A stretch of DNA of 64,000 nt from positions 1 to 64,000 of IMG/VR virus record IMGVR_UViG_3300020473_001965. One strand, 5' to 3'. The notes beneath the pieces were generated by a model that had not been told where the DNA came from, searched no databases, and saw only the letters and a program-made list of their open reading frames with translations. This document shows positions 11,332-63,441 of this stretch, in pieces (within the stretch, counting starts at the first letter, position 1; each line of letters starts with the position of its first letter). Made by a program: the position numbers and the translations under genes. This DNA is from a virus.

Positions 11332-11376
11332 TATTACCTCTCAATTTTATTATATTGGGTGCGTTTTAATTATAAA

Positions 11377-12684: not shown

Positions 12685-13855
12685 CTATCTTTCCTCCAAA
12701 TATTCTTGAAAAAGCCGGCCAGATGTCATCTTTTGAAGTGAGCATAATATTTTTAAACTTTTTGTCGACCATGTGCTCATATTCTTTAGACATAAGGGAC
12801 TGCTCAAACCGACTCCACTTTGGCTCTTCTTCATGCGGCAAGATTTCAATAAAACAATATAGCTGTGCCAGGTTTTTGATCTTGAGTGACTCATTAATAG
12901 CCCTAGGGTTGTCTTCAGGCCAATTATCACCATCTGAGCAGTGGAATGCGTAAATATTCCATGAATCAGGATGATAGCGCTTAGATATTATTTCATTTGC
13001 AAGCTTGGGCGCGGATGAAATGTAAGTACCTCCGGAGGTCATGACTTTAAAAAAGTCATCTTCATTTACTTCTTTTGCTTTAGTTGTATGAGCGAGAAAG
13101 ACAATTTCTGTATTTTCATACCGATGGTTGATAAACTGATATAATAGGAAAAAGAATGATCTTGCTATAAACTTTTTCTTTTGTGTCATCGAGCCTGACA
13201 CGTCCATCATGAAGAATATTACAGCATTTGAATTTTCACGGGGTGTAGGTTTAATATAGTGATACTTTAAATCATTTTGATGAAATGGAAATCTTTCCTC
13301 TTCTTCTGGGTCATAGTCACCTGTTCTCTGCGCTGCTTTTTTTCTTCTAATTTTGTTCTTAAGTGTTTCTTTCTTTGAAAGTCTTGGCCTAATCCCTTCT
13401 GATCGATAGCCCTTTCTCCTGAGCTTTTCTCCCATGATGTTCTTCATCTGCTTCTTTTCAAGCTCAGGAAGGTTCAGGTCGTCAAACAGGTAAGCCGCTA
13501 ATTCTTCGAGAGATATTTCTACTTCGTAGATTTCTTCGCCCTCTTCATTGCCTGCCTTGTTACCTGGCTTTTTTTCTTTGCCCTTCTTTTGAATGGATTG
13601 CCCACGAGTGATGTCTGCACCAGGTGCGCTACCTACTTTTCTATTTTTAGAATTTTCACCATATATGAATCTATACTCTTTGATACCTCTGACTGGTATC
13701 TTGATCTTCTTCTTGCCATCTTTTCCAATAATAGACTCATCTGAAACGATATCATGAATACCTTCCTTGATGGCTCTTTCTATCTTTTTCTTGTGTCTAG
13801 ATCTGTCACTAGCTGAACGATCTGAGTGTGTTTTATGATGTTTAAAAATGGACAT
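12677..13855 (-). CDS. yeaH: YeaH/YhbH (DUF444) VWA-like protein
   Basis: 392 aa. Basic N-terminal region (to about residue 190), then a VWA-like domain starting FFMMDVSGSMTQKKK with the MIDAS DxSGS and a later TSGGTYISS. Matches the DUF444 partner of PrkA. First gene of the module; SpoVR and PrkA follow on the same strand. Confidence 0.92.
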   Translation of the reverse strand: MSIFKHHKTHSDRSASDRSRHKKKIERAIKEGIHDIVSDESIIGKDGKKKIKIPVRGIKEYRFIYGENSKNRKVGSAPGADITRGQSIQKKGKEKKPGNKAGNEEGEEIYEVEISLEELAAYLFDDLNLPELEKKQMKNIMGEKLRRKGYRSEGIRPRLSKKETLKNKIRRKKAAQRTGDYDPEEEERFPFHQNDLKYHYIKPTPRENSNAVIFFMMDVSGSMTQKKKFIARSFFFLLYQFINHRYENTEIVFLAHTTKAKEVNEDDFFKVMTSGGTYISSAPKLANEIISKRYHPDSWNIYAFHCSDGDNWPEDNPRAINESLKIKNLAQLYCFIEILPHEEEPKWSRFEQSLMSKEYEHMVDKKFKNIMLTSKDDIWPAFSRIFGGKIDE

Positions 13856-28777: not shown

Positions 28778-29108
28778 ACTAAAAAGTTTTCGAAATTTTC
28801 TCCGGAAGAAATTTTTGAGTTTTACTTTTTTCCATTTTGAATAGCGCAGCTATTTTAGCTCTCTTCGTTGAAGGGGTAAAAAGTTTTCGGCAAGTTCTCC
28901 GGAAAAAAATGCGTAGACTTAGGCCCATCCCAGGGGGTACCCCCCGACTGAATACGGGGGCTGGGGGGCCCCGCCCTCTGGGGCCGGGGGCCCTAGGCTC
29001 TAGATAGGGGGGCCTGGGGTAGGGCGCCCTAGGTCTGCACGGGTAGGGGCCCCCGGGGCTATGGTAGGGGCGCCCTTACTGTCACCGGTCATGTAGATGG
29101 GGCGCGCC
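28778..29108. repeat. Non-coding junction with direct repeats and GC-rich palindromes
   Basis: No gene fits. Two copies of AAAAAGTTTTCG...TTCTCCGGAA begin at about 28780 and 28877. Then a stretch of about 190 nt is dominated by G/C runs and palindromes such as GGGGCCCC, GGGCGCCC and CCTAGG. GGGCGCCCTAGG plus YCTGCAYG occurs near 29020 and, with one CG inserted, near 29100. Composition shifts from AT-rich to GC-rich across it. An origin, packaging site or genome-segment boundary is possible. Confidence 0.5.
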
Positions 29109-29381
29109 CTAGGCCTGCATGAGCCGATTGTATGTCTCCCTAGGGATGAGCTTTCCCTCTACTGTGCCGTCGTAGTTCTTAAAGATAACGAAGTTAAAGC
29201 GATTCGACGGGACAAGCTTAACCAGCTCGCATGCCTGATGCTCATCCTCGGTTGTATAACTACCCATATCCCACAGGATGGTGAACCAGCCGTTGCCATG
29301 AACCTCTGTGACCTTCCCTTGATACTTCCTGCCACCGGCATATGTGATTCGGTCCTCTACCATGTCGCCTACTTTAAGCAT
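29109..29381 (-). CDS. MKVGD-family SH3-like protein (array I)
   Basis: 90 aa, longest of the array. The ATG 7 nt behind GGAGT gives MLKVGDMVED; one 2 codons earlier is less well placed. The KVGDxV start, YQGKVTEVHGNGWFTILWD core and acidic tail fit a KOW/SH3-like barrel. It has its own promoter at 29415-29442 and ends at the GC-rich junction. Confidence 0.7.
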   Translation of the reverse strand: MLKVGDMVEDRITYAGGRKYQGKVTEVHGNGWFTILWDMGSYTTEDEHQACELVKLVPSNRFNFVIFKNYDGTVEGKLIPRETYNRLMQA

Positions 29382-29414
29382 TGTCATACTCCTGCATTGC
29401 TTAGTGACATTCTT

Positions 29415-29442
29415 ATTATATCCCGCGCCGCGGCGTCTTACA
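29415..29442 (-). promoter_or_regulatory. TGTAAR promoter 1
   Basis: TGTAAG at 29442-29437, 16 nt, TATAAT at 29420-29415. The spacer is GC-rich and palindromic (GCCGCGGCG). The 35-nt block 29408-29442 is repeated exactly at 32156-32190. Drives the 29109 gene. Confidence 0.75.
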
Positions 29443-29443
29443 T

Positions 29444-29635
29444 TTAGCTCGTGACAACTGTTAGCCTTTTTTGCTCATGAACCGTTGTAGTGTCGCCTTC
29501 TAAGACTTCCCATGTACAGTACTCAGCATCGTAAGACAGTCGCTTGCGCCGTACGACGACCCCCACCCTGCCAGTGTCCAGCCTTCCTCCCCACCGAGAG
29601 ACCTTCCAGATCTTTACTAGATCACCGACTTTCAT
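29444..29635 (-). CDS. MKVGD-family SH3-like protein (array I)
   Basis: 63 aa. ATG at 29635 behind GAGGTTATCA. Core GRVGVVVRRKRL and YCTWEVLEGD fit the family barrel. Its first 14 nt are the last 14 nt of the upstream gene. Last gene of the transcript from promoter 2. Confidence 0.7.
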   Translation of the reverse strand: MKVGDLVKIWKVSRWGGRLDTGRVGVVVRRKRLSYDAEYCTWEVLEGDTTTVHEQKRLTVVTS

Positions 29636-29804
29636 TGATAACCTCTGCATTCACAAAATCAAGATCACTGCGGGTCCACGTATCAAATTCGCCATCAATA
29701 AGAAATTCAAACTTATAGCCATCTGCCCATGTACAAACACCAATCCAGCTGTGGCGATCCATTTCAGTGATATAATCTACTTTGACGCAATCACCGACTT
29801 TCAC
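29622..29804 (-). CDS. MKVGD-family SH3-like protein (array I)
   Basis: 60 aa from GTG. MKVGDCVKVDY start, WIGVCTWADGYKFEFLIDG core, end EVINESR. The codons for NESR-stop double as the start of the next gene, and GAGGTTATC upstream of them is that gene's ribosome site. Confidence 0.7.
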   Translation of the reverse strand: MKVGDCVKVDYITEMDRHSWIGVCTWADGYKFEFLIDGEFDTWTRSDLDFVNAEVINESR

Positions 29805-29952
29805 TGATCACCTCTAAATCACGCAGAGAAAATTTCTCGCCACAATGCAGGATTACCCACGGGTGCCTTCGCGCCATGGGATTATCAGTAACAATCTCCA
29901 TAATTATTCCAGTTGTTCCATTTTTTAGTCTTACTAGATCACCGACTTGCAT
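29791..29952 (-). CDS. MKVGD-family SH3-like protein (array I)
   Basis: 53 aa, ATG at 29952 behind GAGGTGATCG. MQVGDLVRLKNGTTGIIMEI start, HPWVILHCGEKFSL core, end LEVISESR. 14-nt overlaps at both ends. Confidence 0.7.
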   Translation of the reverse strand: MQVGDLVRLKNGTTGIIMEIVTDNPMARRHPWVILHCGEKFSLRDLEVISESR

Positions 29953-30118
29953 CGATCACCTCTTCAATTTGTGTATAGTGAAAAGCCTTCAACACACCGT
30001 CAACTTTGATAATAGGGTTCTTGAACGAATCCAGATCGACGACTAGTCCCAACTTGCCAGCTGAAGGACCGTTCCTTCGTGTCGAGTCGTGAAGCTTTAC
30101 TAGATCACCGACCTTCAT
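29939..30118 (-). CDS. MKVGD-family SH3-like protein (array I)
   Basis: 59 aa, ATG at 30118 behind GAGGTGATTA. MKVGDLVKLHDSTRR start, GKLGLVVDLDSF and IIKVDGVLKAF core, end EEVIDASR. 14-nt overlaps at both ends. Confidence 0.7.
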   Translation of the reverse strand: MKVGDLVKLHDSTRRNGPSAGKLGLVVDLDSFKNPIIKVDGVLKAFHYTQIEEVIDASR

Positions 30119-30275
30119 TAATCACCTCAATCTGAGTCTCTGGCCAGACAACCATCGATCCATCACAGTCTAGAATATCCCACCAGCCTTCTGCAAACTC
30201 ACCATAACTGACTAGCACTCCGATTCGCTCTTTGTCGAAAGAGCCCATAAACTTTACAATGTCACCGACTTTCAT
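30105..30275 (-). CDS. MKVGD-family SH3-like protein (array I)
   Basis: 56 aa, ATG at 30275 behind GGAGGTCATCA. MKVGDIVKFMGSF start, RIGVLVSYGEF and WWDILDCDGSMVVW core, end IEVINEGR. 14-nt overlaps at both ends. Confidence 0.7.
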   Translation of the reverse strand: MKVGDIVKFMGSFDKERIGVLVSYGEFAEGWWDILDCDGSMVVWPETQIEVINEGR

Positions 30276-30465
30276 TGATGACCTCCATCAGAGATACCAT
30301 TGACTGGGTGAAGTCTCCGTTGTCCCAAAGGACGTCTGCACTCAGTTGCTTCCTCGTGCGACCACTGGTCCAGACCTGCATGACGACACCTGTCTGTCTC
30401 TCACCCGGTGTCACCGTCGATCCCCAAGTGCCTTTAAACTTTATCAGATCTCCAACCTTCAGCAC
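30262..30465 (-). CDS. MKVGD-family SH3-like protein (array I)
   Basis: 67 aa from GTG. MLKVGDLIKFKGTW start, TGVVMQVW and SADVLWDNGDFT core, end MEVINESR. Its GTG overlaps the upstream stop region by 7 nt. Confidence 0.7.
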   Translation of the reverse strand: MLKVGDLIKFKGTWGSTVTPGERQTGVVMQVWTSGRTRKQLSADVLWDNGDFTQSMVSLMEVINESR

Positions 30466-30650
30466 ACCTTCTCCAACTCATCCTCGTCAAACTCAGCGAC
30501 CTGACCCAGAACCATGACTTTGGCTGCGGGAATGTAGAGCCGCTTTGCCAAAGCAATGACCACACCGATCTGGCCTTCTGCTTCCGGCCATGCAGAATGG
30601 ACACTGTTGTCATGAAGAATCCTGACCATGTCTCCTACAGCCAACTCCAC
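30459..30650 (-). CDS. MKVGD-like SH3 protein (array I)
   Basis: 63 aa from the GTG behind GGGGTGCTGAA; an earlier GTG adds 5 residues. ELAVGDMVRIL start, IGVVIALAKRLYI core, end ELEKVC, so the usual NESR coupling end is absent. Follows the small membrane protein of the same transcript. Confidence 0.6.
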   Translation of the reverse strand: MELAVGDMVRILHDNSVHSAWPEAEGQIGVVIALAKRLYIPAAKVMVLGQVAEFDEDELEKVC

Positions 30651-30651
30651 T

Positions 30652-30765
30652 TCAGCACCCCACACAGTGCATGCACCATGGCATGTTGCAGGCTACCGCG
30701 ATGATGGCGGGAACGATTGCGATGATTGCGAGTGTTCTAGTGATGTCTTGAGCAGCTTGTGCCAT
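30652..30765 (-). CDS. Mini membrane protein, 37 aa, CMHC motif
   Basis: MAQAAQDITRTLAIIAIVPA start, one membrane segment, ending CNMPWCMHCVGC. AGAGGTACTC ribosome site. First gene of the promoter 2 transcript. The CMHCxG end also closes the 39-aa protein at 31984-32103. Confidence 0.65.
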   Translation of the reverse strand: MAQAAQDITRTLAIIAIVPAIIAVACNMPWCMHCVGC

Positions 30766-30817
30766 TTTGAGTACCTCTTGGTGAGAGTGACGTAAGGCGT
30801 TTCCTCCTTACATTCTT

Positions 30818-30845
30818 ATAATACCACGCTCACCCGAGTCTTACA
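30818..30845 (-). promoter_or_regulatory. TGTAAR promoter 2 with 5'-hairpin leader
   Basis: TGTAAG at 30845-30840, 16 nt, TATTAT at 30823-30818. The -35 contains the stop codon of the 30841 gene. The leader folds as GTAAGG/CCTTAC at 30792-30811. Confidence 0.75.
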
Positions 30846-31020
30846 CTAACTCAAGCCACTCCGCCTTGACACACCACTGGCGTCCGTCTTCCCACATAAC
30901 GAGAATGTTGTCGTCTCTCATAAACTTCGGGAGGATCTTGACAACCAATCCGGAATGCGCGCGGTCTGGTTTGTGGCTGTACTTTACTAGAGAGCCTTCT
31001 TCGATTCTGGCTTTACCCAT
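30841..31020 (-). CDS. MKVGD-like SH3 protein (array I)
   Basis: 59 aa, ATG at 31020. IEEGSLVKYSHKPDRAHSGL start, VMWEDGRQWCV core, end EWLELV. Its TAA is also part of promoter 2. Overlaps its upstream neighbour by 34 nt, more than the usual coupling. Confidence 0.6.
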   Translation of the reverse strand: MGKARIEEGSLVKYSHKPDRAHSGLVVKILPKFMRDDNILVMWEDGRQWCVKAEWLELV

Positions 31021-31220
31021 ACTCCCTCCTTCATCCAGTAGTCGACGTCGCTACGAGAGACACCTTCAATTGAAGTCTCCAACGTCGTCCCCGGGATACC
31101 TGACCACAAGACCTCTACCCAATCACACGCTTCAGCGAACTCTTCGTCCGAGTCATAGGGCGTGATGTCCAGGATCACACCCGTCTCATCACCGCACTGC
31201 ACCAAGTCACCGACTTTCAC
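30987..31220 (-). CDS. MKVGD-family SH3-like protein (array I)
   Basis: 77 aa from GTG. MKVGDLVQCGDETGVILDI start, DWVEVLWSG core; an extra basic tail PESKKAL replaces the ESR end. Start overlaps the upstream gene by 14 nt. Confidence 0.65.
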   Translation of the reverse strand: MKVGDLVQCGDETGVILDITPYDSDEEFAEACDWVEVLWSGIPGTTLETSIEGVSRSDVDYWMKEGVWVKPESKKAL

Positions 31221-31407
31221 TGACTACCTCCAAAAACATTTCTTTCACTCTTCGCGTTGTCCCTGTCTCAGGCCACATGACGTGTACGATGTTGTACATA
31301 GAGTGCAGCCCTTGATCCTCATGCTTGACGACGATGCCGTGACCAGGTGGGTAGGCATGGATCCGACTCGAGTAGTTAACTATCTTTACTAGATCACCGA
31401 CTTTCAT
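31207..31407 (-). CDS. MKVGD-family SH3-like protein (array I)
   Basis: 66 aa. ATG at 31407 behind GAGGTGATTG. MKVGDLVKIVNYSSR start, GHGIVVKHEDQG and VHVMWPETGTT core, end LEVVSESR. 14-nt overlaps at both ends. Confidence 0.7.
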   Translation of the reverse strand: MKVGDLVKIVNYSSRIHAYPPGHGIVVKHEDQGLHSMYNIVHVMWPETGTTRRVKEMFLEVVSESR

Positions 31408-31624
31408 CAATCACCTCGAGCTCCACCACCGGGATGTTCAATTTGCAGTCGTCGTACATCACAACTGCATGCAGCTCCGGGTCTACCTCTCGCCAGTCAA
31501 TCATTGGACCCAGCTCATCTGTCCGCCAGACTTTCTTCTGAATCGTGTCGACAACAATTCCCGTACGGGTCGCGACCTGTTTTTCATCGATCTTCTTTAG
31601 TCTTACCAAATCACCTGTCTTCAT
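31394..31624 (-). CDS. MKVGD-family SH3-like protein (array I)
   Basis: 76 aa. The ATG behind GGAGAGAGTAC gives MKTGDLVRLKKI. TRTGIVVDTIQKKV and HAVVMYDDCKL core, end LEVIDESR. Longer upstream starts are possible but lack a site. Confidence 0.7.
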   Translation of the reverse strand: MKTGDLVRLKKIDEKQVATRTGIVVDTIQKKVWRTDELGPMIDWREVDPELHAVVMYDDCKLNIPVVELEVIDESR

Positions 31625-31802
31625 GTACTCTCTCCACTCTTTCTCGCATAATCCAGTTGCACCTGCCATCAGCCCACAGTACGACTGGGTCACGCCTCCC
31701 CGGCCGTGGGTCTGATCCTTGATTGTCTGACCAATCGATAACAACCCCTGTCATCCGACTCTCCGAAAAGAGGTTCTTCACTAAGTCACCAATCTTCAGC
31801 AT
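31611..31802 (-). CDS. MKVGD-family SH3-like protein (array I)
   Basis: 63 aa. ATG at 31802 behind GAGTTGAGAT, giving MLKIGDLVKN. TGVVIDWSDNQ and DPVVLWADGRCN core, end VHEDR, whose codons overlap the next start by 14 nt. Confidence 0.7.
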   Translation of the reverse strand: MLKIGDLVKNLFSESRMTGVVIDWSDNQGSDPRPGRRDPVVLWADGRCNWIMRERVERVHEDR

Positions 31803-31972
31803 GCCAATCTCAACTCGTCTTCCCATACACCAATCATATGCCCATCGTCCCAAAGGATCACGCAGAAACAGTACTCACCGTTAACTGTGTGCTCGGTTTC
31901 GACAACAATGCCAACCGGAAGTCCTTCGACCCCCGGTTCGCGTTTCATCTGTACGAGATCTCCTACGTTCAC
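31796..31972 (-). CDS. MKVGD-family SH3-like protein (array I)
   Basis: 58 aa from GTG behind GGAGAGCTGA. MNVGDLVQMKREPG start, VGIVVETEHTV and CVILWDDGHM core, end EDELRLAC. Ends like the 30459 gene rather than NESR. Confidence 0.65.
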   Translation of the reverse strand: MNVGDLVQMKREPGVEGLPVGIVVETEHTVNGEYCFCVILWDDGHMIGVWEDELRLAC

Positions 31973-31983
31973 TCAGCTCTCCG

Positions 31984-32103
31984 TCAGTGTCCTGGGCAGT
32001 GCATGCAAAGATCGAGCACTTCAGCCAAAACGATGATTGTTGGGAACATAGCGACGATCACCGTTCCAGTGATCTGATCTTGATATTTCTTGAGTGTTTC
32101 CAT
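31984..32103 (-). CDS. Mini membrane protein, 39 aa, CMHC motif
   Basis: METLKKYQDQITGTVIVAMF start, one membrane segment, ending LCMHCPGH. AAGGAAGAG site. First gene of the promoter 3 transcript; shares the CMHCxG end with the 30652 gene. Confidence 0.65.
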   Translation of the reverse strand: METLKKYQDQITGTVIVAMFPTIIVLAEVLDLCMHCPGH

Positions 32104-32162
32104 TGTCTCTTCCTTGGTGAGGAGGTTACGTTAGTAAGGTTGTTTTCCTTCCTTACATTCTT

Positions 32163-32190
32163 ATTATATCCCGCGCCGCGGCGTCTTACA
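32163..32190 (-). promoter_or_regulatory. TGTAAR promoter 3 with 5'-hairpin leader
   Basis: TGTAAG at 32190-32185, 16 nt, TATAAT at 32168-32163, identical over 35 nt to promoter 1. The leader folds as GTAAGG/CCTTAC at 32134-32156. Confidence 0.75.
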
Positions 32191-32195
32191 CTGGA

Positions 32196-32390
32196 TTACT
32201 CAGATTCCTTTACCACCTCGAGCCAGTCAGCCGGCTCCCAGTCTACGACCAGAGAGTCACACCACATCACACCGACTCGCCGCATGTTCCCACTAATCTT
32301 CTGGCGATCGTCAACAATTAGTCCAACCGATGGCGGCTCACCGCATGGGATCGATTCACCCGGCATTATGACGAGATCACCGGCTTTCAC
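32196..32390 (-). CDS. MKVGD-family SH3-like protein (array I)
   Basis: 64 aa from GTG. MKAGDLVIMPGESI start, SVGLIVDDRQ and RVGVMWCDSL core, end LEVVKESE. Its GTGA overlaps the upstream stop. Confidence 0.65.
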   Translation of the reverse strand: MKAGDLVIMPGESIPCGEPPSVGLIVDDRQKISGNMRRVGVMWCDSLVVDWEPADWLEVVKESE

Positions 32391-32551
32391 TTACGCCTCC
32401 CCCGACGCAGAGGACGACCCAGTCTCGGGTTGCGCTTCTTTACGAAGTTCCGATCGTGGTACCAAGCAGCACCGCAAGCCAGCAACACCGAGAACATCAG
32501 CATCATGAACGCTGAGAACTGAAAAAAGAATGATACTTCAGGACAATACAT
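32387..32551 (-). CDS. Mini membrane protein with basic tail
   Basis: 54 aa. One membrane segment (FSAFMMLMFSVLLACGAAW) then RNFVKKRNPRLGRPLRRGRR, a strongly basic cytoplasmic tail. Its ATG overlaps the previous stop (TAATG) and its end overlaps the next start by 4 nt. Confidence 0.65.
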   Translation of the reverse strand: MYCPEVSFFFQFSAFMMLMFSVLLACGAAWYHDRNFVKKRNPRLGRPLRRGRRK

Positions 32552-32691
32552 TATGCTGCTACCCTCCGAAACTTGAGGCGCACGTTCTTCGCTCCGCGAC
32601 TGCGCCAGATGTTGAACTGCCTGAAAGCCTCATCGCAGCTGTACGTGCCACTGTAGTGGCCACCGATAAACAACTCGTACTTGACCCGCAC
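32551..32691 (-). CDS. Small basic protein
   Basis: 46 aa from GTG behind GAGGTGAAGTA. MRVKYELFIGGHYSGTY start, Arg-rich end FRRVAA. Starts on the last base of the upstream stop. No family. Confidence 0.55.
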   Translation of the reverse strand: MRVKYELFIGGHYSGTYSCDEAFRQFNIWRSRGAKNVRLKFRRVAA

Positions 32692-32858
32692 TACTTCACC
32701 TCAGTGAGCGCGCTGGGAATGTGACGAGACAAATGATTTGACATGTCCCACTTGACGAGAATGATCGGGGTCTCATTGCCCCACTTCTTAGTCTTCGCCA
32801 ACACCCGACCAATTTGGCCGGGATAGCTGACATGCGTTACGCGAGCTCCAACCTTCAT
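32691..32858 (-). CDS. MKVGD-family SH3-like protein (array I)
   Basis: 55 aa. ATG at 32858 behind GGTGATCTC; MKVGARVTHVSYPG start, IGRVLAKTKKWG and PIILVKWDMS core, end LTEVK. ATGA overlap with the upstream mini protein. Confidence 0.65.
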   Translation of the reverse strand: MKVGARVTHVSYPGQIGRVLAKTKKWGNETPIILVKWDMSNHLSRHIPSALTEVK

Positions 32859-32950
32859 GAGATCACCTGTGCGATCGCCATGCAAACGCCGAGCTCTGAG
32901 ACGACGCCGAGGTATCCGAGAAGAATGTAGTTTCCGATTTGTTCAGTCAT
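32855..32950 (-). CDS. Mini membrane protein, 31 aa
   Basis: MTEQIGNYILLGYLGVVSEL start; one membrane segment. CCAAGGAAAT site. First gene of the promoter 4 transcript. Confidence 0.6.
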   Translation of the reverse strand: MTEQIGNYILLGYLGVVSELGVCMAIAQVIS

Positions 32951-33002
32951 GTTATTTCCTTGGTGAGGAGTTGATTTGTGGTAGGACCATCCCTACATTT
33001 AT

Positions 33003-33030
33003 ATAATACCACAACTTACCAAGTCTTACA
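33003..33030 (-). promoter_or_regulatory. TGTAAR promoter 4 with 5'-hairpin leader
   Basis: TGTAAG at 33030-33025, 16 nt, TATTAT at 33008-33003. The leader folds as GTAGG/CCTAC at 32981-32996; the stem keeps pairing although its sequence differs from that of promoters 2 and 3. Confidence 0.75.
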
Positions 33031-41365: not shown

Positions 41366-41562
41366 CTGTCTAGTCGAGTAGAGTGCTCGAGCTTAGTTTC
41401 CTCTTCCTCTTCAACCTCAACCGGTGTTGGCTCCAGGTATGGGTCTAGACTATCGCCCCTGATCCACATCCCAAACTGAGCACCCCACGTCGGATGAAGG
41501 CTGATAGCAATGAGGAAGCCCCAGACTCCGAATCCGATGATAGTGAATAGCGCTTCAACCAT
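41356..41562 (-). CDS. Small membrane protein
   Basis: 68 aa. One membrane segment (LFTIIGFGVWGFLIAISL), acidic tail (EVEEEEETKLEH). Shares one base with the upstream stop. Confidence 0.6.
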   Translation of the reverse strand: MVEALFTIIGFGVWGFLIAISLHPTWGAQFGMWIRGDSLDPYLEPTPVEVEEEEETKLEHSTRLDRWV

Positions 41563-42905
41563 TACGCCGCCTCCTTGCTTGCATTGCCCTTCAGCTCCAC
41601 GACTGTGTCACCGCGGTGTGCGTCGAAGTACAGCTTGCGTCCCGGGACGATCACCCATGCCCGACGCATGCGGGAGGGACCAGGGTCGGCAGCCTCCCCG
41701 TCGGTGCAGACGATGTAGCCATCGAAGCGGTGACGGTTCTCTTCAGCGTGCCGAGCAACTGCCCTGAAGCACGTGCCGCCGCAGCGGAAGCGGTTGAGCT
41801 TCGAGCGCGAGCCCTTCTTCCAGACGATCTCATTGTCGGTGTCAACCGTGCTGTCGAATGGGTAGAAGGTGAACGTTACCTTGCGTGCCAGCTGCTCCAG
41901 CTCTGCGTAGAGCAGTGCCAGCGACTCATCATCAACCGAGCCACTCTGATCGACGTAGACTGCCACGTTGGCGCTGTGACCAATCTTGCGGCCGCTGTGG
42001 ATGTAGGGGTACTTGCGGTTGAGACGCTTCATGGTGCGGCTCTTGTTAGCGCGCTGACTCATGCCAACGAAGTTACGAAGGACTGCGCGCCAGTCAACCT
42101 CATTCGAGCACATCCGACGGAGCTCGCTCCGCATCTCAGCGGGCACCGAGCCCCACTGGCCCTTGCTGTCACACTTCTTGACTGCGTTCTTGAGGGCTTG
42201 CTTGACCTTGCCCTTGACGAGCTCCTTCTCAGCGTCGGTAGCACCCTCGCCCCACTCACCGTGGTCGTCCATGGTACCGGGAACGCCGTCTCCCTCTCCG
42301 GGCTGGCCGCCTTGGCCGTCGCCACCAGTGAGATCGTCCTTCATCTGCTCGTCATCCATCAGCTGGCCGAAGTACCACTCCGCGCTCATGTTCGGCGGGA
42401 AGCTTTCAATCTTTGCCGAGATGCGATCGAAGCGTGCCTTGGCCTGCTCATCGAGCTTGGCGTACGCATCCGGATCGATGTGGATGGCCTGGCCAGGAAT
42501 GAGACCACCCTTGGGAAGCTCCTCCACTGGGATGATCGAGTTGATCGCGAGGTCGGTCGCGTAGTTGTGAACGATGTGCGGGGTCTTCTTGCGGCTAGTC
42601 GTGTGCTCGAAGACCAGGTGGTACACCTCGTGCTTGAGAAGTCCCTTTACTTCTTTGTTGCTCAGCGAGGCGAGGAAGCGGCGGTTCCACCACATCTTGA
42701 TATCACCGTCCTTGGCGAGCACGCCGGCGGTCGGGATCGAGTCCGTCTCCACCTTGGTGACGTCACGAAGCATGGCCGAGAAAAAGGGCTCATCCCACAT
42801 CAACGCTGTGAGGTGGTTGCCAAGGTCGAAAGCAGCGAGCTCCGCGTCGGTCAGCTCTGCGCCTGGTGCCACTGGGATGTCGGTCGAGGTAGTGTTGTCA
42901 GCCAT
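41562..42905 (-). CDS. VWA-like metallopeptidase (DUF2201 type)
   Basis: 447 aa. N-terminal zinc-peptidase-like motif HEVYHLVFEH (92-101), a Gly/Asp-rich linker near 200-225, and a C-terminal VWA-like domain starting VAVYVDQSGSVDDES (about 318). Same arrangement as bacterial DUF2201 proteins that pair with MoxR ATPases; the ATPase gene is next upstream. The pair probably remodels a protein target. Confidence 0.85.
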   Translation of the reverse strand: MADNTTSTDIPVAPGAELTDAELAAFDLGNHLTALMWDEPFFSAMLRDVTKVETDSIPTAGVLAKDGDIKMWWNRRFLASLSNKEVKGLLKHEVYHLVFEHTTSRKKTPHIVHNYATDLAINSIIPVEELPKGGLIPGQAIHIDPDAYAKLDEQAKARFDRISAKIESFPPNMSAEWYFGQLMDDEQMKDDLTGGDGQGGQPGEGDGVPGTMDDHGEWGEGATDAEKELVKGKVKQALKNAVKKCDSKGQWGSVPAEMRSELRRMCSNEVDWRAVLRNFVGMSQRANKSRTMKRLNRKYPYIHSGRKIGHSANVAVYVDQSGSVDDESLALLYAELEQLARKVTFTFYPFDSTVDTDNEIVWKKGSRSKLNRFRCGGTCFRAVARHAEENRHRFDGYIVCTDGEAADPGPSRMRRAWVIVPGRKLYFDAHRGDTVVELKGNASKEAA

Positions 42906-42926
42906 TTGTTATCTCCTTACTATCTA

Positions 42927-42954
42927 ATAATATCACGCTGCGCCGAATCTTACA
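42927..42954 (-). promoter_or_regulatory. TGTAAR promoter 12
   Basis: TGTAAG at 42954-42949, 16 nt, TATTAT at 42932-42927. Drives 42905 to 40784. The rest of the gap to 43017 shows nothing. Confidence 0.75.
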
Positions 42955-43016
42955 CCAAAGCGCGCCAGCTCCACCACAGAGCTGACGCTTTGGCACACCC
43001 TCTAGCGAGGACTGAA

Positions 43017-44045
43017 TCATGAACGGCTAGCCTGAACGGCCTCGACGACCTTCTTACCGATGAGCTTGTGAAGCTTCTGGATGTTCTTCAGGTTGGAAGT
43101 ACCAGACACCTGGTTCCAGAGGTGAACGAGCATCTCGGAGCTAGGAAGAGCGTTGGCGAACGCGGCCACGTTGGCAGCCTGGCTGGCCTTCCACTCGTTG
43201 TCCTTGCAGTGAGCTGCGAGCTTGCCGATCAGGCCGTTGACCTTGGAGGCCTCGAAGCCCTTGATCTGCTCCGCCACTGCCTCGAAGTTGTCGAGCACGT
43301 CCTCAGCGGACACCTCGTTCTCCCAGTTCTTGGCGAACTCCACCAGCGAGATGGCAGCTTCAACACCGACCATACCCAGAGCGACCGGGTACCACACGTC
43401 GGAAGGCTGCTCCACCTCACCCATGTGCTTGAGGCTCAAGTCAAGGCGTTCCCACGAAGCGGGGTTCGGGGCGACCTTGCCAGGCTCCGTCGCTGCGGTA
43501 GGACGAAGGTGCTCCTCGTGCTGACGAATGAAGTCGACGATGACAGGGGCCAGACGACCCTCAGCCCAGTCGAGGAAGTCAGCGTGAGTCGGCTCCAACT
43601 CAATGCTCCAGAAACGACGGAGAAGAGCAGGGTCCATCTCGTTGACCTCGTACTCGGCACCAACGTTGACCGCCGCGAAGACGCGGGTGTCAGGGTGCAG
43701 CTTGTGACCGTTGAGCTCCCGGTCCAGGACGATCTGGAACGCAGCCTGAATGACCTCGGGGGTCGCACGGTTGAGCTCGTCCATGAAGAGGACGACTGGC
43801 TCACGGCAAGCTTGAGCGTACCAGTCTGGCGGGCAGAAGCGAGTGGTACCATCGACCAGCTCGGGGAGACCAACCATGTCACCTTCGCTCATTTGCGACA
43901 GGCGGCGGTCGATCACCGGCAGCTCCAACCCGGCTGCGATATCCTTGACGAGGTACGACTTACCGATACCGGTAGGACCTTGAATGAGGACCGCAATCTC
44001 TGCGGGGAGGCGAGGGGCGATGTTGTTGAAAGTCTTGATGTCCAT
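43017..44045 (-). CDS. MoxR-type AAA ATPase
   Basis: 342 aa, usual MoxR length. Walker A QGPTGIGKS (22-30), Walker B PVVLFMDELNR near 100, sensor-1 and Arg-finger region (ALLRRFWSIEL) near 160. MoxR proteins act as chaperones with VWA partners; the VWA gene follows behind its own promoter. Confidence 0.9.
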   Translation of the reverse strand: MDIKTFNNIAPRLPAEIAVLIQGPTGIGKSYLVKDIAAGLELPVIDRRLSQMSEGDMVGLPELVDGTTRFCPPDWYAQACREPVVLFMDELNRATPEVIQAAFQIVLDRELNGHKLHPDTRVFAAVNVGAEYEVNEMDPALLRRFWSIELEPTHADFLDWAEGRLAPVIVDFIRQHEEHLRPTAATEPGKVAPNPASWERLDLSLKHMGEVEQPSDVWYPVALGMVGVEAAISLVEFAKNWENEVSAEDVLDNFEAVAEQIKGFEASKVNGLIGKLAAHCKDNEWKASQAANVAAFANALPSSEMLVHLWNQVSGTSNLKNIQKLHKLIGKKVVEAVQASRS

Positions 44046-47756: not shown

Positions 47757-47819
47757 GACTAGATTATACAGAGTCTGTGTTTTCTTGTATTGATTCTAAC
47801 GAGAGAATATTTACTTTAT

Positions 47820-48569
47820 ATGAGCACGTGGGAAGAGCTAAGCGAGAAACACAGTCCGATCGTCTGGCTTCCCACACGTGAGACTTGGCACACATGTCGC
47901 TGTCGATACTATGTACACATTCCCAAGACAGGAGGCAAGATGTTTCGATCACATGGCACGCCTGACTTCGGTAGTCGGGGTTTCGAGTTCAGCCGCAAGC
48001 ACGTGTGGGACCCGCGAGTAACTTATCCAAAACAGGGCGCAAGTTACTTTTCAACTGTTCGCAACCCATACGATTGGCTCATTAGCATGTGGTTCTACAA
48101 TTGGGGTGAAAAGGTAGGTGCAGGCCCTCAGGACATGTACCTGTCTCTTGAACACTTCCTTTATGACTTTAACTCCCCTAAGCTGACGGGCAAGAACCAG
48201 TGGGACACGAGAGAGCTTGGCGCGACCAAGCATATCATGTGGCCTCTAAGATACTTTCAACTTGCGCAAACATTCGATCCTTTCGATTCGCCCGGAAGGA
48301 AGGAAAGCTTTGCTTCTTTCTACATCAGGCTTGAACGAATTGATAGTTTTTTTAGAGATGCATGGTCATGGACATCTAAGTCTAAGCCGCCAAAGACTAA
48401 CACATCGAAGCACAACGATTATCGTACATATTACACACCTGACCTCGTTGATCACATAGCCAACTGGAGGGGTCAAGAGCTTTCACTGATGGGTTACGAT
48501 TTTGATGGGCCCAAAGGTCCTGAAGTTACGTTTTCGATAAGAGGTTCTTACTATTATCAGCCTGAATGA
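47820..48569 (+). CDS. Sulfotransferase-like protein A
   Basis: 249 aa; ATG preferred over a TTG 10 codons upstream. YVHIPKTGGK near 30 is the 5'-phosphosulfate (PAPS) loop and TVRNPYDWLISMWF near 82 the 3'-phosphate site. C-terminal YRTYYTPDLVDHI. Only + strand member of the cluster; its end overlaps sulfotransferase B by 13 nt. Would transfer sulfate to a sugar or other hydroxyl. Confidence 0.8.
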   Translation: MSTWEELSEKHSPIVWLPTRETWHTCRCRYYVHIPKTGGKMFRSHGTPDFGSRGFEFSRKHVWDPRVTYPKQGASYFSTVRNPYDWLISMWFYNWGEKVGAGPQDMYLSLEHFLYDFNSPKLTGKNQWDTRELGATKHIMWPLRYFQLAQTFDPFDSPGRKESFASFYIRLERIDSFFRDAWSWTSKSKPPKTNTSKHNDYRTYYTPDLVDHIANWRGQELSLMGYDFDGPKGPEVTFSIRGSYYYQPE

Positions 48570-49348
48570 TCTGGAATGATAAAGGGGCATGTGACTTTTA
48601 TCGCCCGATAATCGTCCATGGGCCCATCAAAATCATAACCAAGCATGTGAAGCTCTTGTCTTCGAAACTCGGATATCACACTTATCATCTCGACATCGTA
48701 AAAGTCCCGATAGTCACGCCTCTTTCTTACTTTTGACCGATTAAGCCATAAGACTTCCTCTGTCTCTTGATCACCTCGGAGATAACGTATCACTTCATCT
48801 AAGTGTTCGAATCGAATGTAAAAGTCAGCAAAGCTGTGGGAAAGCAATCTCTTTTTTTTGAAAGACTGGAACGTCTGCCATGTCTGGAGATATCGAAGAG
48901 GCCATCGGGCGTTGTCCCAACCCCTCGCTGACTTCCTATTCCAGTACGTCATTTGAGTCGGACCGGGTTGATGCATGTCCATGATGAAGTCTTTGAAACT
49001 CGGGTATGAGCCGCGGATTCCAGCTTGACCCCATGGCCCGTGAAACCACATGCTCAACAGTAAGTCGTATGGGTTTCTGATACATGAGAAGATTATGTGC
49101 CCTTCCGGGCGTGCTTTGCACCAGTCATGATTTGTCTTGCTAACATATGATCGCTTACCTGTAACATGATTAAAGATAGACTCGAGTTCTTTAGATATCG
49201 TGTGCCCTGCCGTCTTGTGTATGTGCACGAACATGTTTTTCTTCGGCCCGCACAACAGAGCGTAAACTTCTGCCATCGGTACTTCTAAGGGAAAACCTCC
49301 TGTTGTGGATGCTCCACTATCTCTGACTAACTCATAAAATGTGCTCAT
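48557..49348 (-). CDS. Sulfotransferase-like protein B
   Basis: 263 aa. FVHIHKTAGHT near 40 replaces PKTGG; CIRNPYDLLLSMWF near 88 is intact. RDFYDVEMISVI matches the C-terminal block of A. The changed PAPS loop may lower activity. Confidence 0.75.
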   Translation of the reverse strand: MSTFYELVRDSGASTTGGFPLEVPMAEVYALLCGPKKNMFVHIHKTAGHTISKELESIFNHVTGKRSYVSKTNHDWCKARPEGHIIFSCIRNPYDLLLSMWFHGPWGQAGIRGSYPSFKDFIMDMHQPGPTQMTYWNRKSARGWDNARWPLRYLQTWQTFQSFKKKRLLSHSFADFYIRFEHLDEVIRYLRGDQETEEVLWLNRSKVRKRRDYRDFYDVEMISVISEFRRQELHMLGYDFDGPMDDYRAIKVTCPFIIPDHSG

Positions 49349-49354
49349 GTTTAG

Positions 49355-49591
49355 TTACTCGTCGCCATCGTCACCGATAGCTTCAACTGGGCATGACTCT
49401 AGAGCCTCATAGCACTGGTCTAGTTCCTCGTCGTTCTCGGGTTGCTTGTACACGATATCATGATCCTCGTCATCACTTATGCGAAAGTTATTGGGCGCGC
49501 AATCAGAACAGACGGAGCAGATGATGCACTCCCGATCGACGTAGAATTTTCCGGGGACGTTGTCTTCCCACTTATCGTTTTTATCTGCCAT
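49355..49591 (-). CDS. Ferredoxin (4Fe-4S type)
   Basis: 78 aa. CIICSVCSDCAPNNF near 23 and SCPVEAIG near 67 provide the cluster Cys residues of a small single-cluster ferredoxin. Phage ferredoxins are known to feed electrons to host or phage reductases. Lies between two sulfotransferases. Confidence 0.85.
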   Translation of the reverse strand: MADKNDKWEDNVPGKFYVDRECIICSVCSDCAPNNFRISDDEDHDIVYKQPENDEELDQCYEALESCPVEAIGDDGDE

Positions 49592-49617
49592 GTAGATATC
49601 TATCGAGCCTTCGAGGA

Positions 49618-58526: not shown

Positions 58527-58674
58527 CACCCCTTTCTCTTCTTTCACGAATTTCTTTTTGTAAATCTATCAAATCATACGGTCCAGTGCGTTTTTTCCTC
58601 ACTAGGTAAAAGAACATCACAAACGCAAACGAAACTGTAAATGCAGCTGCTACAGCAAGAAGCGACTCAAGCAC
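58519..58674 (-). CDS. Mini membrane protein, 51 aa
   Basis: GTG behind GGAGGTGATCA. MLESLLAVAAAFTVSFAFVM start, basic helical tail (LQKEIRERRERGDG). Overlaps at both ends by 8 nt. Confidence 0.6.
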   Translation of the reverse strand: MLESLLAVAAAFTVSFAFVMFFYLVRKKRTGPYDLIDLQKEIRERRERGDG

Positions 58675-58852
58675 TGATCACCTCCAACCTTCGTGACTTA
58701 TCGGTCTGTATAGACCCGTCTTGCCACATCACCTTAACATCTTTCCGACCAGCATACACACCCACCTCAATAATCATTCCAACCCAGTCATATCCGGTTG
58801 GTGCCCATTTCTGGGTTTTGAAATCGAACTTTACCAAATCACCGACTTTCAT
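58667..58852 (-). CDS. MKVGD-family SH3-like protein (array II)
   Basis: 61 aa. MKVGDLVKFDFKTQKW start, WVGMIIEVGVY and VKVMWQDGSIQ core, end LEVISA. 14-nt overlap with the upstream gene. Confidence 0.7.
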   Translation of the reverse strand: MKVGDLVKFDFKTQKWAPTGYDWVGMIIEVGVYAGRKDVKVMWQDGSIQTDKSRRLEVISA

Positions 58853-59048
58853 TGACTACCTCGAGAGATTCTGGGTATTCTTCTTCAGCTGGATATCTAT
58901 CGTTCCAGCACACTACAGCATATCTTTCTTGTGGGTCTCCAAAATTGTCAACATCAGTATGAAAATCAATTATGACACCCACCCATTGCTTTTCATGTGT
59001 GCTTACCCACGCGTCTTCTTTTGGTCTAACTAAATCCCCAACTCTCAT
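58839..59048 (-). CDS. MKVGD-family SH3-like protein (array II)
   Basis: 69 aa. MRVGDLVRPKEDAW start, WVGVIIDFHTDV and AVVCWNDRYP core, end LEVVNESR. Confidence 0.7.
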   Translation of the reverse strand: MRVGDLVRPKEDAWVSTHEKQWVGVIIDFHTDVDNFGDPQERYAVVCWNDRYPAEEEYPESLEVVNESR

Positions 59049-59179
59049 GATCGGACCTTCATCACATCATCATGATCAAATAGCTCGCCAGTATGAATTT
59101 TTACTCTGTCAAGGTCGAACCAAACAACAATGCCTAAAGAATTATCTCGTACAACCTTGATCAAATCACCTACTTTCAT
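59045..59179 (-). CDS. MKVGD-family protein, short (array II)
   Basis: 44 aa, shortest member. MKVGDLIKVVRDNSLGIVVW start, end KVRS. 14-nt overlap upstream, ATGA downstream. Confidence 0.65.
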   Translation of the reverse strand: MKVGDLIKVVRDNSLGIVVWFDLDRVKIHTGELFDHDDVMKVRS

Positions 59180-59489
59180 CACATCCTCCGCATCCGTGGT
59201 CGATTTCTTTGTCGATTCCTTTAAGCTTAACCCACCCGCTCCAGATTATTGGGACTGCAAGCCAGTGTATACATAGCAACCAAGAGGCTGGTGCACCGGC
59301 GTAAAAGGCGGGATGAACATTATTTCCGAGAAATATAAAAAGCAAAGGGAAAAGCACATCTTCAATAATCTCCCATCCGATAATAATTATCACCAACGCG
59401 AGTCCGTGTTGCTTCATCGTACGTTTGATTGTGCCCCACCGAAAATGATCCAGCTTGTGGCCTAATCTATCTTTGATCCATTTTAACAT
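59166..59489 (-). CDS. Membrane protein in array II
   Basis: 107 aa. Three hydrophobic segments (LALVIIIIGWEII, LFPLLFIFLG, LLCIHWLAVPII) then DHGCGGCDESR, whose last codons are the coupling overlap. Not an SH3 protein but uses the same junction. Confidence 0.65.
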   Translation of the reverse strand: MLKWIKDRLGHKLDHFRWGTIKRTMKQHGLALVIIIIGWEIIEDVLFPLLFIFLGNNVHPAFYAGAPASWLLCIHWLAVPIIWSGWVKLKGIDKEIDHGCGGCDESR

Positions 59490-59667
59490 CTTCGCTTACC
59501 TTTCTCACATATCCAGCCGGCCACCACTTTACCACACCGCAACAAAGCACATTGATAAAGTGCATGGTCCCTGTACTTTCTTCGGGTTTTGCCTTTTCAA
59601 TCAGCACGCCGAGAATAAGATCTTCTTGGCCTTTCACGCCAACTTCCACTAAATCACCGACTTTCAC
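59467..59667 (-). CDS. MKVGD-family SH3-like protein (array II)
   Basis: 66 aa. MKVGDLVEVGVKGQED start, ILGVLIEKAKPEES and VVKWWPAGYV core. 23-nt overlap with the membrane protein downstream, 14-nt upstream. Confidence 0.7.
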   Translation of the reverse strand: MKVGDLVEVGVKGQEDLILGVLIEKAKPEESTGTMHFINVLCCGVVKWWPAGYVRKVSEDVKMDQR

Positions 59668-59812
59668 TGATCAGCTCCAACCACCCTTCGGCAATATACC
59701 TTACCTCACACGTCGTTTGGTCAAGAACACCTACCAACGCTGTATTGTCCACTTTTGCTACCAAATAACATTTGCCAAACCGCTTGTGCTTTACCAAGTC
59801 ACCGACTTTCAT
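59654..59812 (-). CDS. MKVGD-family SH3-like protein (array II)
   Basis: 52 aa. MKVGDLVKHKRFGKCYL start, ALVGVLDQTTCEVRY core, end LELISESR. Confidence 0.7.
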   Translation of the reverse strand: MKVGDLVKHKRFGKCYLVAKVDNTALVGVLDQTTCEVRYIAEGWLELISESR

Positions 59813-59979
59813 TTAATCACCATAAGGTAGCGAGTTGCGACTTCTTCGAGTATCTTAGTTTGACCGTGTGCAGTCCACAATATGCGGGCGGCCTTCCAAT
59901 CAAATGGGCGAATGCTGAGTATTACACCAGACCCTTGTAGCGTACCGAATTTATGTTTTACTAAATCACCGACTTTCAC
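59809..59979 (-). CDS. MKVGD-family SH3-like protein (array II)
   Basis: 56 aa from GTG. MKVGDLVKHKFGTLQGSGV start, ARILWTAHGQTK core, end MVIK. 4-nt overlaps. Confidence 0.7.
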   Translation of the reverse strand: MKVGDLVKHKFGTLQGSGVILSIRPFDWKAARILWTAHGQTKILEEVATRYLMVIK

Positions 59980-60791: not shown

Positions 60792-60986
60792 TTATACATC
60801 TTTCTCATTTAGCTTCTTGGCTCTCCATTCCTTAAATTTTTCAGTTGACATTCCACCGATGACGTCTTCTAATTGTGCATCGTGCAACTCTGTTTCGTCA
60901 GGGAAGATTGATGCAGATTCGACCGTGTGTGTTCTAAGTTTCTTCTTTAACCAATCCCTTAAGTTGACAATATTATTGACTTTCAC
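60792..60986 (-). CDS. Small protein coupled to array II
   Basis: 64 aa from GTG. MKVNNIVNLRDWLKKKLRTH start (a degenerate MKVGD start), helical KEWRAKKLNEKDV end. Confidence 0.55.
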   Translation of the reverse strand: MKVNNIVNLRDWLKKKLRTHTVESASIFPDETELHDAQLEDVIGGMSTEKFKEWRAKKLNEKDV

Positions 60987-61170
60987 TTACAACATCCCAA
61001 TACTCTTTCAGGTCACTCTTGATCCTGCCGTCTGGCAGCATTACTTTAATCGCATTTCCCGAAACTTCATATACTAGAAAGGGCTCTTCTGTGTATGGAA
61101 CTCCATGCTTGCTAGTCTTTTTCATCCAGAACGCAATGTACTTCATTTGCACTAAGTCACCAGCTTTCAC
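60973..61170 (-). CDS. MKVGD-family SH3-like protein (array II)
   Basis: 65 aa. MKAGDLVQMKYIAFWMKK start, FLVYEVSGNAIKVMLPDGRI core, end DVVSESQ; the overlap with the next start is 14 nt. Confidence 0.7.
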   Translation of the reverse strand: MKAGDLVQMKYIAFWMKKTSKHGVPYTEEPFLVYEVSGNAIKVMLPDGRIKSDLKEYWDVVSESQ

Positions 61171-62301: not shown

Positions 62302-62502
62302 TCAAAACTCGCTTAACTTCAGTGGTTCAAGTCTATCTAGCTGTGTCCACGAAACTCCTGAATGCCATAACACCTTGGCCACTCGGACCATCACTGATGA
62401 GTCGTCAGGGTGATGCATTTTAAAATCGAGCAGAACTCCGGCATTCCGGCCTCGTATGTCGACGTCATTTCTTTTTATTCGTACCAAGTCACCTATTTTC
62501 AT
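62302..62502 (-). CDS. MKVGD-family SH3-like protein (array II, second part)
   Basis: 66 aa. MKIGDLVRIKRNDVDI start, NAGVLLDFKMHHPD and AKVLWHSGVSW core, ends LEPLKLSEF. Confidence 0.7.
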   Translation of the reverse strand: MKIGDLVRIKRNDVDIRGRNAGVLLDFKMHHPDDSSVMVRVAKVLWHSGVSWTQLDRLEPLKLSEF

Positions 62503-62701
62503 CTACAACTACTCTCCCAGGATTATCAATAGCATCTCTCATAGTCAGGCCGAAGTGCTCAGCAACAGCTAAAACTATTCTTTTCATTTGAGACGACTTT
62601 CCAGTGATAACAATAAAAGGCACGTCGAAGTCATTACAGCACCTTGATATAATATCGGAAACATCTTTGTGTCTCACCCCATGAAGATCAACTGTTTTCA
62701 T
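62489..62701 (-). CDS. Smr-domain-like protein
   Basis: 70 aa. MKTVDLHGVRHKDV (DLHG) and IVITGKSSQM (TGxx) match the Smr domain; members nick or cleave RNA or DNA. It is inside the array and ends DENR, with 14-nt junctions. Confidence 0.7.
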   Translation of the reverse strand: MKTVDLHGVRHKDVSDIISRCCNDFDVPFIVITGKSSQMKRIVLAVAEHFGLTMRDAIDNPGRVVVDENR

Positions 62702-62873
62702 CGATCACCACCCGGAGTCTAATTGACTGATCATGTGTGTAATGCCATTCGCCAGGGATTCCCTCCCAATCGACTACAACATAGTCCTTTGTTATCTTTA
62801 TAACTCTTCCCGATGCCACGTTGTGCTTCCACATAGGAGACATCTCAACTCTATCACCTACCTTGAAATTCAT
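62688..62873 (-). CDS. MKVGD-family SH3-like protein (array II)
   Basis: 61 aa; ATG in AGAGTGATG. MNFKVGDRVEMSPMWK start, VVVDWEGIPGEWHYT core, end VIDENS overlapping the next start by 14 nt. Confidence 0.65.
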   Translation of the reverse strand: MNFKVGDRVEMSPMWKHNVASGRVIKITKDYVVVDWEGIPGEWHYTHDQSIRLRVVIDENS

Positions 62874-63441
62874 CACTCTGCTCTGTTGTTCTGGACCACC
62901 ATGGCGGAAGATCTCCCGATCTCCACTTAGCAAATCTTACCTTGTCCTTTAAATAATATTCTCTATAGCAGTCAACAGGATCATCACTTACCTTGTAATC
63001 TTCTAACATACAAATTGAGAACGGTGATAATCCTTTCGACTGTAATCGAGGCGGATGATTATTGTGTAGCCAACGATGCACCCTAGAAGACTTGTGGGTT
63101 TTGCCATATCGCTTTTCATACTCTTCACAAAGTGCTAATCCCAGCTTAGAGTGCCAGACATAATTGTCTAAGCTCTCTCTAGTCCAAACACTGCATGGGT
63201 GATTGATGTGTGTCATCTTCCACTCGGGCTGAAAAACGGTGGGAACTTCTTGATAAAGAAAAGCTTTTGCTTCTTTCTGCGTTCTAAAATCTTTTATATC
63301 CTTCTTAAGGTAGTCAAGCCAGCCCAACCAGTGCGCTGTACACAGCATCTGGCCTGACTCCAGAATCATCTTCAAGACGTGCTTGTCACAGTGGTAACTA
63401 GCTGCAATTTCTGGGTCGTTGTCAAGAATAAAGATGTTCAT
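62854..63441 (-). CDS. Conserved phage protein with CDKH motif
   Basis: 195 aa; ATG giving MNIFILDNDPEIAASYHCDK. CDKHVLKMILESGQMLCTAH and THINHPCSVWTRES resemble a phage family I know, function unknown (sometimes linked to DNA repair by annotation). Then DCYREYYLKDKVRFAKW. Confidence 0.65.
   Translation of the reverse strand: MNIFILDNDPEIAASYHCDKHVLKMILESGQMLCTAHWLGWLDYLKKDIKDFRTQKEAKAFLYQEVPTVFQPEWKMTHINHPCSVWTRESLDNYVWHSKLGLALCEEYEKRYGKTHKSSRVHRWLHNNHPPRLQSKGLSPFSICMLEDYKVSDDPVDCYREYYLKDKVRFAKWRSGDLPPWWSRTTEQSDEFQGR

Follow-up and report, generated by a model that had tools for sequence, protein, structure and literature searches.

Positions 1 to 64,000 of the 235,672-bp virus record IMGVR_UViG_3300020473_001965 (this whole 64-kb stretch is called the window below) carry, on the minus strand at 29.1-33.0 kb (29109-32885), an array of 16 mini-genes of one SH3/KOW-like family, here termed Array I. 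These genes are 53-90 codons long, most have MKVGDLV-type starts, and in eight neighbour pairs the end of one gene and the start of the next share exactly 14 nucleotides (nt). Comparison with other arrays of the family shows, as far as can be judged from sequences, that large, mostly marine, RecA-bearing phages of the T4 type swap single cassettes at this 14-nt overlap. The window's phage itself encodes a T4-type large terminase and RecA.

The overlap is read twice. As ATG AAA GTC GGT GA(T) it starts the downstream gene, and in the +2 frame, as (A)AT GAA AGT CGG TGA, it ends the upstream gene with Asn-Glu-Ser-Arg and a stop codon. The sequence GAGGTGATC ahead of it encodes Glu-Val-Ile in the upstream gene and is the complement of the usual 3′ end of bacterial 16S rRNA. 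With up to three mismatches, ATGAAAGTCGGTGA occurs 24 times in the window, compared to 7.3 +/- 2.6 times in shuffles. An initial annotation, made from the letters of the window alone, had described 16 small SH3-like mini-genes, eight adjacent pairs of which are coupled by an identical 14-nt overlap that carries an NESR end and has a ribosome site ahead of it. The mini-genes and their coupling overlaps were borne out, and the length of 14 nt holds in all eight pairs, but the sequence is a consensus: three overlaps are exactly ATGAAAGTCGGTGA, two have GTG at the start and three carry other changes. The ribosome site and the tail likewise stand in a looser form, with Shine-Dalgarno-like GAGGT at seven of the eight junctions, the full GAGGTGATC at two, and the tails NESR and SESR found twice each, next to DESR, DASR, NEGR and HEDR. 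Three more pairs of Array I overlap by 7, 7 and 34 nt. A second array (Array II, 58-63.6 kb) repeats the 14-nt geometry at 58.8-62.7 kb, in three cases with non-SH3 partners (60792-60986, 62489-62701 and 59166-59489).

The search for the junction beyond the window, proposed in the same annotation, found the pattern GAGGTGATNNRTGAARGTNGGNGA in 117 IMG/VR stretches. Collections of bacterial and archaeal genomes had it in 11 stretches; at least the one labelled a 'Halobacteriovorax' metagenome-assembled genome (101,404 bp) is probably a phage contig. The 117 IMG/VR stretches and the window's phage gave a collected set of 118 sources (1.26 Mb) with about 1,077 non-redundant family members. Among the 621 adjacent pairs of this pattern-retrieved set, the overlap is 14 nt in 478 and 4 nt in 60. 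In the same set, junctions match the anti-Shine-Dalgarno complement over 6.5 nt on average, as against 4.2 nt at other genes of at least 150 amino acids (aa) and 3.6 nt at random positions. Each of 21 viral contigs of 113-293 kb holds 4-20 members (E <= 1e-5). Among 50,697 isolate phage records, tblastn with one member gave no match, and the family consensus gave three weak ones (E 0.1-0.3). No member was found in the nearest isolates by terminase (Microcystis phage Mel-JY01, Flavobacterium phage immuto and Synechococcus phage S-CAM7) or in a 484-kb uncultured phage.

Evidence for exchange came from cassette pairs with at least 70% aa identity and both neighbours known (n = 53): in 45 of them the neighbours differ on both sides, and in two on neither. 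One cassette was seen nine times, with a different partner wherever the neighbour was identified. Such pairs keep a high identity throughout the cassette; ahead of its start, and from a few bases past its stop, identity is at the random level. When linkage was scored against column frequencies, that to the downstream cassette had essentially vanished at -2 and at most positions before it, and that to the upstream cassette had done so from +13 on; crossovers are therefore located inside the 14-nt overlap. By these profiles, the ribosome-site codons move together with the upstream gene. Exactly one cassette is present in 204 of the 213 shared array DNA segments that hold at least one, and shared non-array segments reach 7,963 nt. 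In the window, the cassette at 29622-29804 has a 70% identical copy in L012 with different neighbours, and that at 59654-59812 is 79% identical to one in L079 that has another gene upstream. The earlier statement that repeating the junction copies a full cassette was thus right in direction and understated, the junction being the exchange point between phages and not merely a duplicated spacer.

The arrays could also be explained without any special exchange, if a coupled gene had simply been duplicated in tandem and its copies had diverged, the junction being copied along merely as a good start site. This would account for a paralogous and locally arrayed family, for junction conservation that follows coding and ribosome-site constraint, and for the same-locus duplicates present in L030 (A-B-A'-C) and L088. 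It does not account for near-identical cassettes in different phages whose neighbours are unrelated on both sides in 45 of 53 pairs, with homology that stops within the junction, nor would it lead one to expect that genes linked by other overlaps remain neighbours. We consider it unlikely.

Neighbours joined in other ways do remain together, and this bears on another explanation, random illegitimate recombination of which selection keeps only gene-edge exchanges. Such recombination is the accepted alternative, as short conserved boundaries are absent at most phage mosaic junctions (PMC3029335), and selection alone would give gene-edge breakpoints; equal exchange would then be expected at 4-nt, 11-nt and intergenic boundaries. 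Boundary type is the control by which exchange driven by homology can be told apart from selection alone. Different neighbours were seen at 118 of 134 14-nt junctions and at three of 17 other close boundaries, which are equally tightly packed (Fisher p = 3.5e-9, to be taken, like the p-values below, as a guide); at the other 14 of the 17 they are retained. The contrast persists with one vote per cluster (p = 2e-4) and within locus pairs that give both types (17/28 versus 2/19, p = 7e-4). These matched-boundary tests replaced a synteny control, which showed general mosaicism as well. As linkage, too, places the exchange in register inside the 14 nt, we regard random joining as distinctly unlikely.

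Every comparison contig is metagenomic, and assemblers might in principle have joined unrelated cassettes at a repeated junction. Exact identity of at least 31 nt is found in merely 0.08% of unrelated junction pairs, and 31 nt is less than the word lengths with which assemblers normally finish. Moreover, at 149 of 162 junctions of the GAGGTGATNNRTGAARGTNGGNGA type an upstream open reading frame (ORF) of 45 codons or more stays open up to the stop in the 14-nt overlap, and shuffling is not seen at boundaries other than 14 nt. An assembly artefact is hardly credible.

Several points weigh against the overall reading given below. The loci were retrieved by the junction pattern, by which the set is enriched for the junction, and there is some dependence among the cassette pairs. 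Neighbours also differ for 194 of 377 non-family genes in the same loci (delimited by a crude gene caller); since such genes often change neighbours too, general mosaicism contributes. Dual coding and the ribosome site largely explain the conservation of the junction, and the positions free of both constraints (-5, -2, +14, +17) vary, so that the junction is no classical site-specific recombination sequence. According to PMC3945230, RecA needs a pairing segment of at least 31-34 bp and Red-beta one of 23-27. Of unrelated junction pairs taken at random, 2.1% are exactly identical over at least 23 nt, the Red-beta minimum, and 565 of 1,225 locus pairs have at least one such junction pair. The majority of junction pairs stay below 23 nt of identity (median 9); classic single exchanges by RecA should therefore be rare, and one has to suppose either annealing that tolerates mismatches or selection acting on rare events.

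A conserved short site with single-cassette exchange recalls integrons, and a dedicated integron-like site-specific recombinase acting on the junction would be a candidate. Tyrosine integrase (PF00589) was detected in none of 22 contigs, with all control genomes positive, although the contigs may be incomplete and HUH and DDE enzymes were not searched; the window's phage has no serine resolvase. Together with the variation at the unconstrained junction positions, this makes such an enzyme highly improbable. RecA was found in 21 of the 22 contigs and an ERF-type annealing protein in none.

Overall, we think it probable that the arrays consist of mobile cassettes swapped at the junction by homologous recombination or annealing and, with less confidence, that their cargo is a repertoire of SH3/KOW host-interaction proteins. 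Each cassette would have RTGAAAGTCGGTGA at its start, and the same 14 nt with upstream GAGGT at its end; its last codons, LEVI-(N/S/D)-E-S-R-stop, would double as the ribosome-binding site and the start (MKVGDLV) of the next gene. We infer that exchange proceeds through the short junction identity by the phage's own homologous recombination or strand annealing, with no integrase. Single-cassette swaps make the arrays combinatorial and leave them phased and translated; translational coupling at the overlap would keep every inserted cassette in phase and expressed. The cargo would be a constant SH3/KOW scaffold with variable loops, provided with shared host-type promoters and serving as accessory takeover or counter-defence factors. 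That the arrays are a dedicated integrase-free cassette exchange system of large marine phages, with combinatorial, host-aimed cargo, and thus a phage counterpart of integrons, is possible but falls short of probable.

The frames are evidently translated and maintained, as the initial annotation had assumed, because dN/dS in 229 cassette pairs (junction ends excluded) has a median of 0.19 and is below 0.5 in 96%, which is indicative of purifying selection. At 67 of 497 junctions the upstream ORF lies outside the family model; some of these are divergent members or spurious ORFs. Non-family cargo, judged by eye, includes Smr-, GNAT- and GIY-YIG-like genes, and in L090 a tRNA-Ala gene (1737-1812) lies within a 47-codon frame that starts with MKVGD and ends with LEVISESR. 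The joint therefore serves unrelated cargo. It may also reach core genes: in L046 the start of a single-stranded DNA-binding protein (8073, plus strand), gp32-like in our reading, is located behind a 14-nt junction (VKVGEYDANGNGNSVLFRPDDGDTDIRIIP).

Two divergent members were modelled with AlphaFold2 from alignments of 26 paralogs and 71 relatives. Both gave five-stranded SH3/KOW-like small beta barrels, and this agreement supports the barrel-like core predicted from the letters. The best Foldseek matches in the PDB were KOW domains (NusG, Spt5, KIN17), PWWP/Tudor domains and YorP, with TM about 0.6-0.75; all had E > 0.02 and none reached E <= 0.001. The family profile weakly resembles the KOW of Spt5, NusG and L24 (E 0.0075 to 1). 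The cut-off for the KOW motif PF00467 (22.3 bits) is not reached by the best protein of the window (12.6 bits), and one of 71 members matches the motif at E 7.8e-4. Searches of Pfam, PHROG and PADLOC revealed no convincing family covering the SH3-like members. The predicted fold and weak profile similarity are thus shared with KOW/SH3-like small barrels such as those of NusG, Spt5, KIN17 and YorP, from which the members differ in being free-standing proteins of 50-77 aa, with no curated family and a highly variable core (mean column identity 18-19%). In the modelled barrel the junction-coded LEVI is in the last strand and LV in the first, and the variable part of the protein therefore sits between two constant ends.

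It is tentatively suggested that the cassettes encode small binding proteins that serve to take over the host or to counter its defences, since a constant scaffold with variable loops, a repertoire specific to each phage, purifying selection, early-type promoters and accessory neighbours all fit. The isoelectric points of the members are bimodal (median 6.5), which disfavours one nucleic-acid role shared by all cassettes.

A promoter-like repeat, TGTAAGAC-N14-TATAATA, is present in its strict form in four copies genome-wide, all in Array I, one ahead of each of four gene groups. Looser copies, TGTAAGAC-N12-14-TAT(A/T)(A/T)T, were found at about 44120 and 45776 (minus strand), and the element is present at none of the 14-nt junctions of Array I. 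These putative host-type promoters suggest early expression of Array I. The first gene behind three of them (30652-30765, 31984-32103 and 32855-32950, minus strand) encodes a hydrophobic peptide of 31-39 aa, with a C-terminal CMHC motif in two of the three.

For decades it has been disputed whether gene-boundary mosaicism arises by short conserved boundaries or by illegitimate joining, and the dispute persists because most junctions have no conserved boundary. In the present arrays the question becomes directly measurable, as a single joint is repeated hundreds of times across many phages and other boundary types provide an internal control. Short conserved sequences at inter-module boundaries of lambdoid phages (Clark et al. 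2001; Susskind and Botstein 1978, as cited in PMC3029335) were likewise suggested to supply the homology by which general recombination exchanges modules. The arrays differ in having one junction for one paralogous family, up to dozens per phage and in many phages, in that the joint is a 14-nt start/stop overlap, and in the contrast of exchange with other boundaries. The promoter-early-stem-loop cassettes (PeSLs) of T4-like phages (Arbiol et al. 2010; Comeau et al. 2014, as described in PMC4503421) are also repeated elements between small accessory genes that mediate shuffling among these phages. PeSLs are intergenic promoter-terminator elements, whereas here the joint lies within coding sequence; the four promoter-like repeats of Array I are a partial likeness, but a promoter with stem-loop does not accompany each shuffled joint. 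As a conserved short edge sequence is present, and flanking modules are exchanged with breakpoints inside it, we file the array system as a variant of boundary-sequence mosaicism, with lambdoid boundaries and PeSLs as the nearest ideas. Integrons share the array of single-gene cassettes, the common joint and exchange one at a time. Unlike them, the arrays were not accompanied by an IntI-type tyrosine recombinase in the 22 contigs, their cassettes are co-translated and not promoterless units behind one attI, the junction is coding, and no attC-like structure was noticed, no folding search having been made. Membership of the integrons is not supported; they are the nearest system in behaviour only. 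A partial literature search revealed no SH3 arrays or cassettes joined by start/stop overlaps in phages, and an earlier description is possible. With no curated family found, this very large single-scaffold phage protein family may supply new host-directed or counter-defence proteins.

The features of both arrays are listed in Table 1. The family hidden Markov model (HMM) was seeded with 27 paralogs, the 16 of Array I among them, and its retrieval of 16/16 Array I members is no independent proof. By the paralog profile more than 30 members are present genome-wide, chiefly at 29-33 and 58-64 kb.

Table 1. Members of the SH3-like family and promoter-like repeats in the window.
Position	Strand	Feature	Evidence
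29109..29381	-	SH3-like member, own promoter-like element	HMM E 5.5e-10
29402..29442	-	Promoter-like repeat	Repeat search
29444..29635	-	SH3-like member	HMM
29622..29804	-	SH3-like member, 14-nt overlap 29622-29635	HMM, overlap
29791..29952	-	SH3-like member, 14-nt overlap 29791-29804	HMM, overlap
29939..30118	-	SH3-like member, 14-nt overlap 29939-29952	Overlap, AlphaFold2 model pLDDT 88.7
30105..30275	-	SH3-like member, 14-nt overlap 30105-30118	HMM, overlap
30262..30465	-	SH3-like member, 14-nt overlap 30262-30275	HMM, overlap
30459..30665	-	SH3-like member (from its first start, core MVRILHDN...), overlapping the next gene by 7 nt	HMM
30805..30845	-	Promoter-like repeat	Repeat search
30841..31020	-	SH3-like member	HMM
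30987..31220	-	SH3-like member	HMM
31207..31407	-	SH3-like member, 14-nt overlap 31207-31220	Overlap, AlphaFold2 model pLDDT 89.5
31394..31624	-	SH3-like member, 14-nt overlap 31394-31407	HMM, overlap
31611..31802	-	SH3-like member, 14-nt overlap 31611-31624	HMM, overlap
31796..31972	-	SH3-like member, 7-nt overlap with next	HMM
32150..32190	-	Promoter-like repeat	Repeat search
32196..32390	-	SH3-like member	HMM
32691..32858	-	SH3-like member	HMM
32990..33030	-	Promoter-like repeat	Repeat search
58667..59048	-	Array II: two SH3-like members, 14-nt overlap 58839-58852	HMM, overlap
59045..59489	-	Array II: SH3-like 59045-59179 and 107-aa non-SH3 hydrophobic protein ending DESR, 14-nt overlap 59166-59179	
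59467..59979	-	Array II: three SH3-like members, 14-nt overlap 59654-59667, 4-nt overlap 59809-59812	
60792..61170	-	SH3-like 60973-61170, 14-nt overlap into non-SH3 gene (VKVNNI...)	Overlap
62302..62933	-	SH3-like 62302-62502 and 62688-62873 flanking 70-aa Smr-like gene 62489-62701, all 14-nt overlaps	

Just downstream of Array I, the region 28920-29080 is G+C-rich, with repeated GGGGCCC/GGCGCCCT blocks. Elsewhere in the window, adjacent genes on the minus strand at 9400-13855 encode PrkA serine kinase, SpoVR and DUF444 (YeaH-type) proteins (Pfam E 9e-136, 1e-112 and 1e-112); this is the stationary-phase yeaG-yeaH-ycgB set of bacteria, here encoded by a phage. A phage tmRNA with the tag ANNNYHYEQRLAA is located at 5354-5720 (minus strand), and five tRNAs are present besides. 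Three similar sulfotransferase-looking proteins with a HIPKTGG-type motif are encoded at 47790-50370; the two that were tested had no Pfam match at 1e-5. At 41562-44045 (minus strand) an AAA (AAA_5) ATPase adjoins a DUF2201 metallopeptidase/VWA protein, and a ribosomal L7/L12 C-terminal domain was matched at 60070-60480 (minus strand, E 3e-6).

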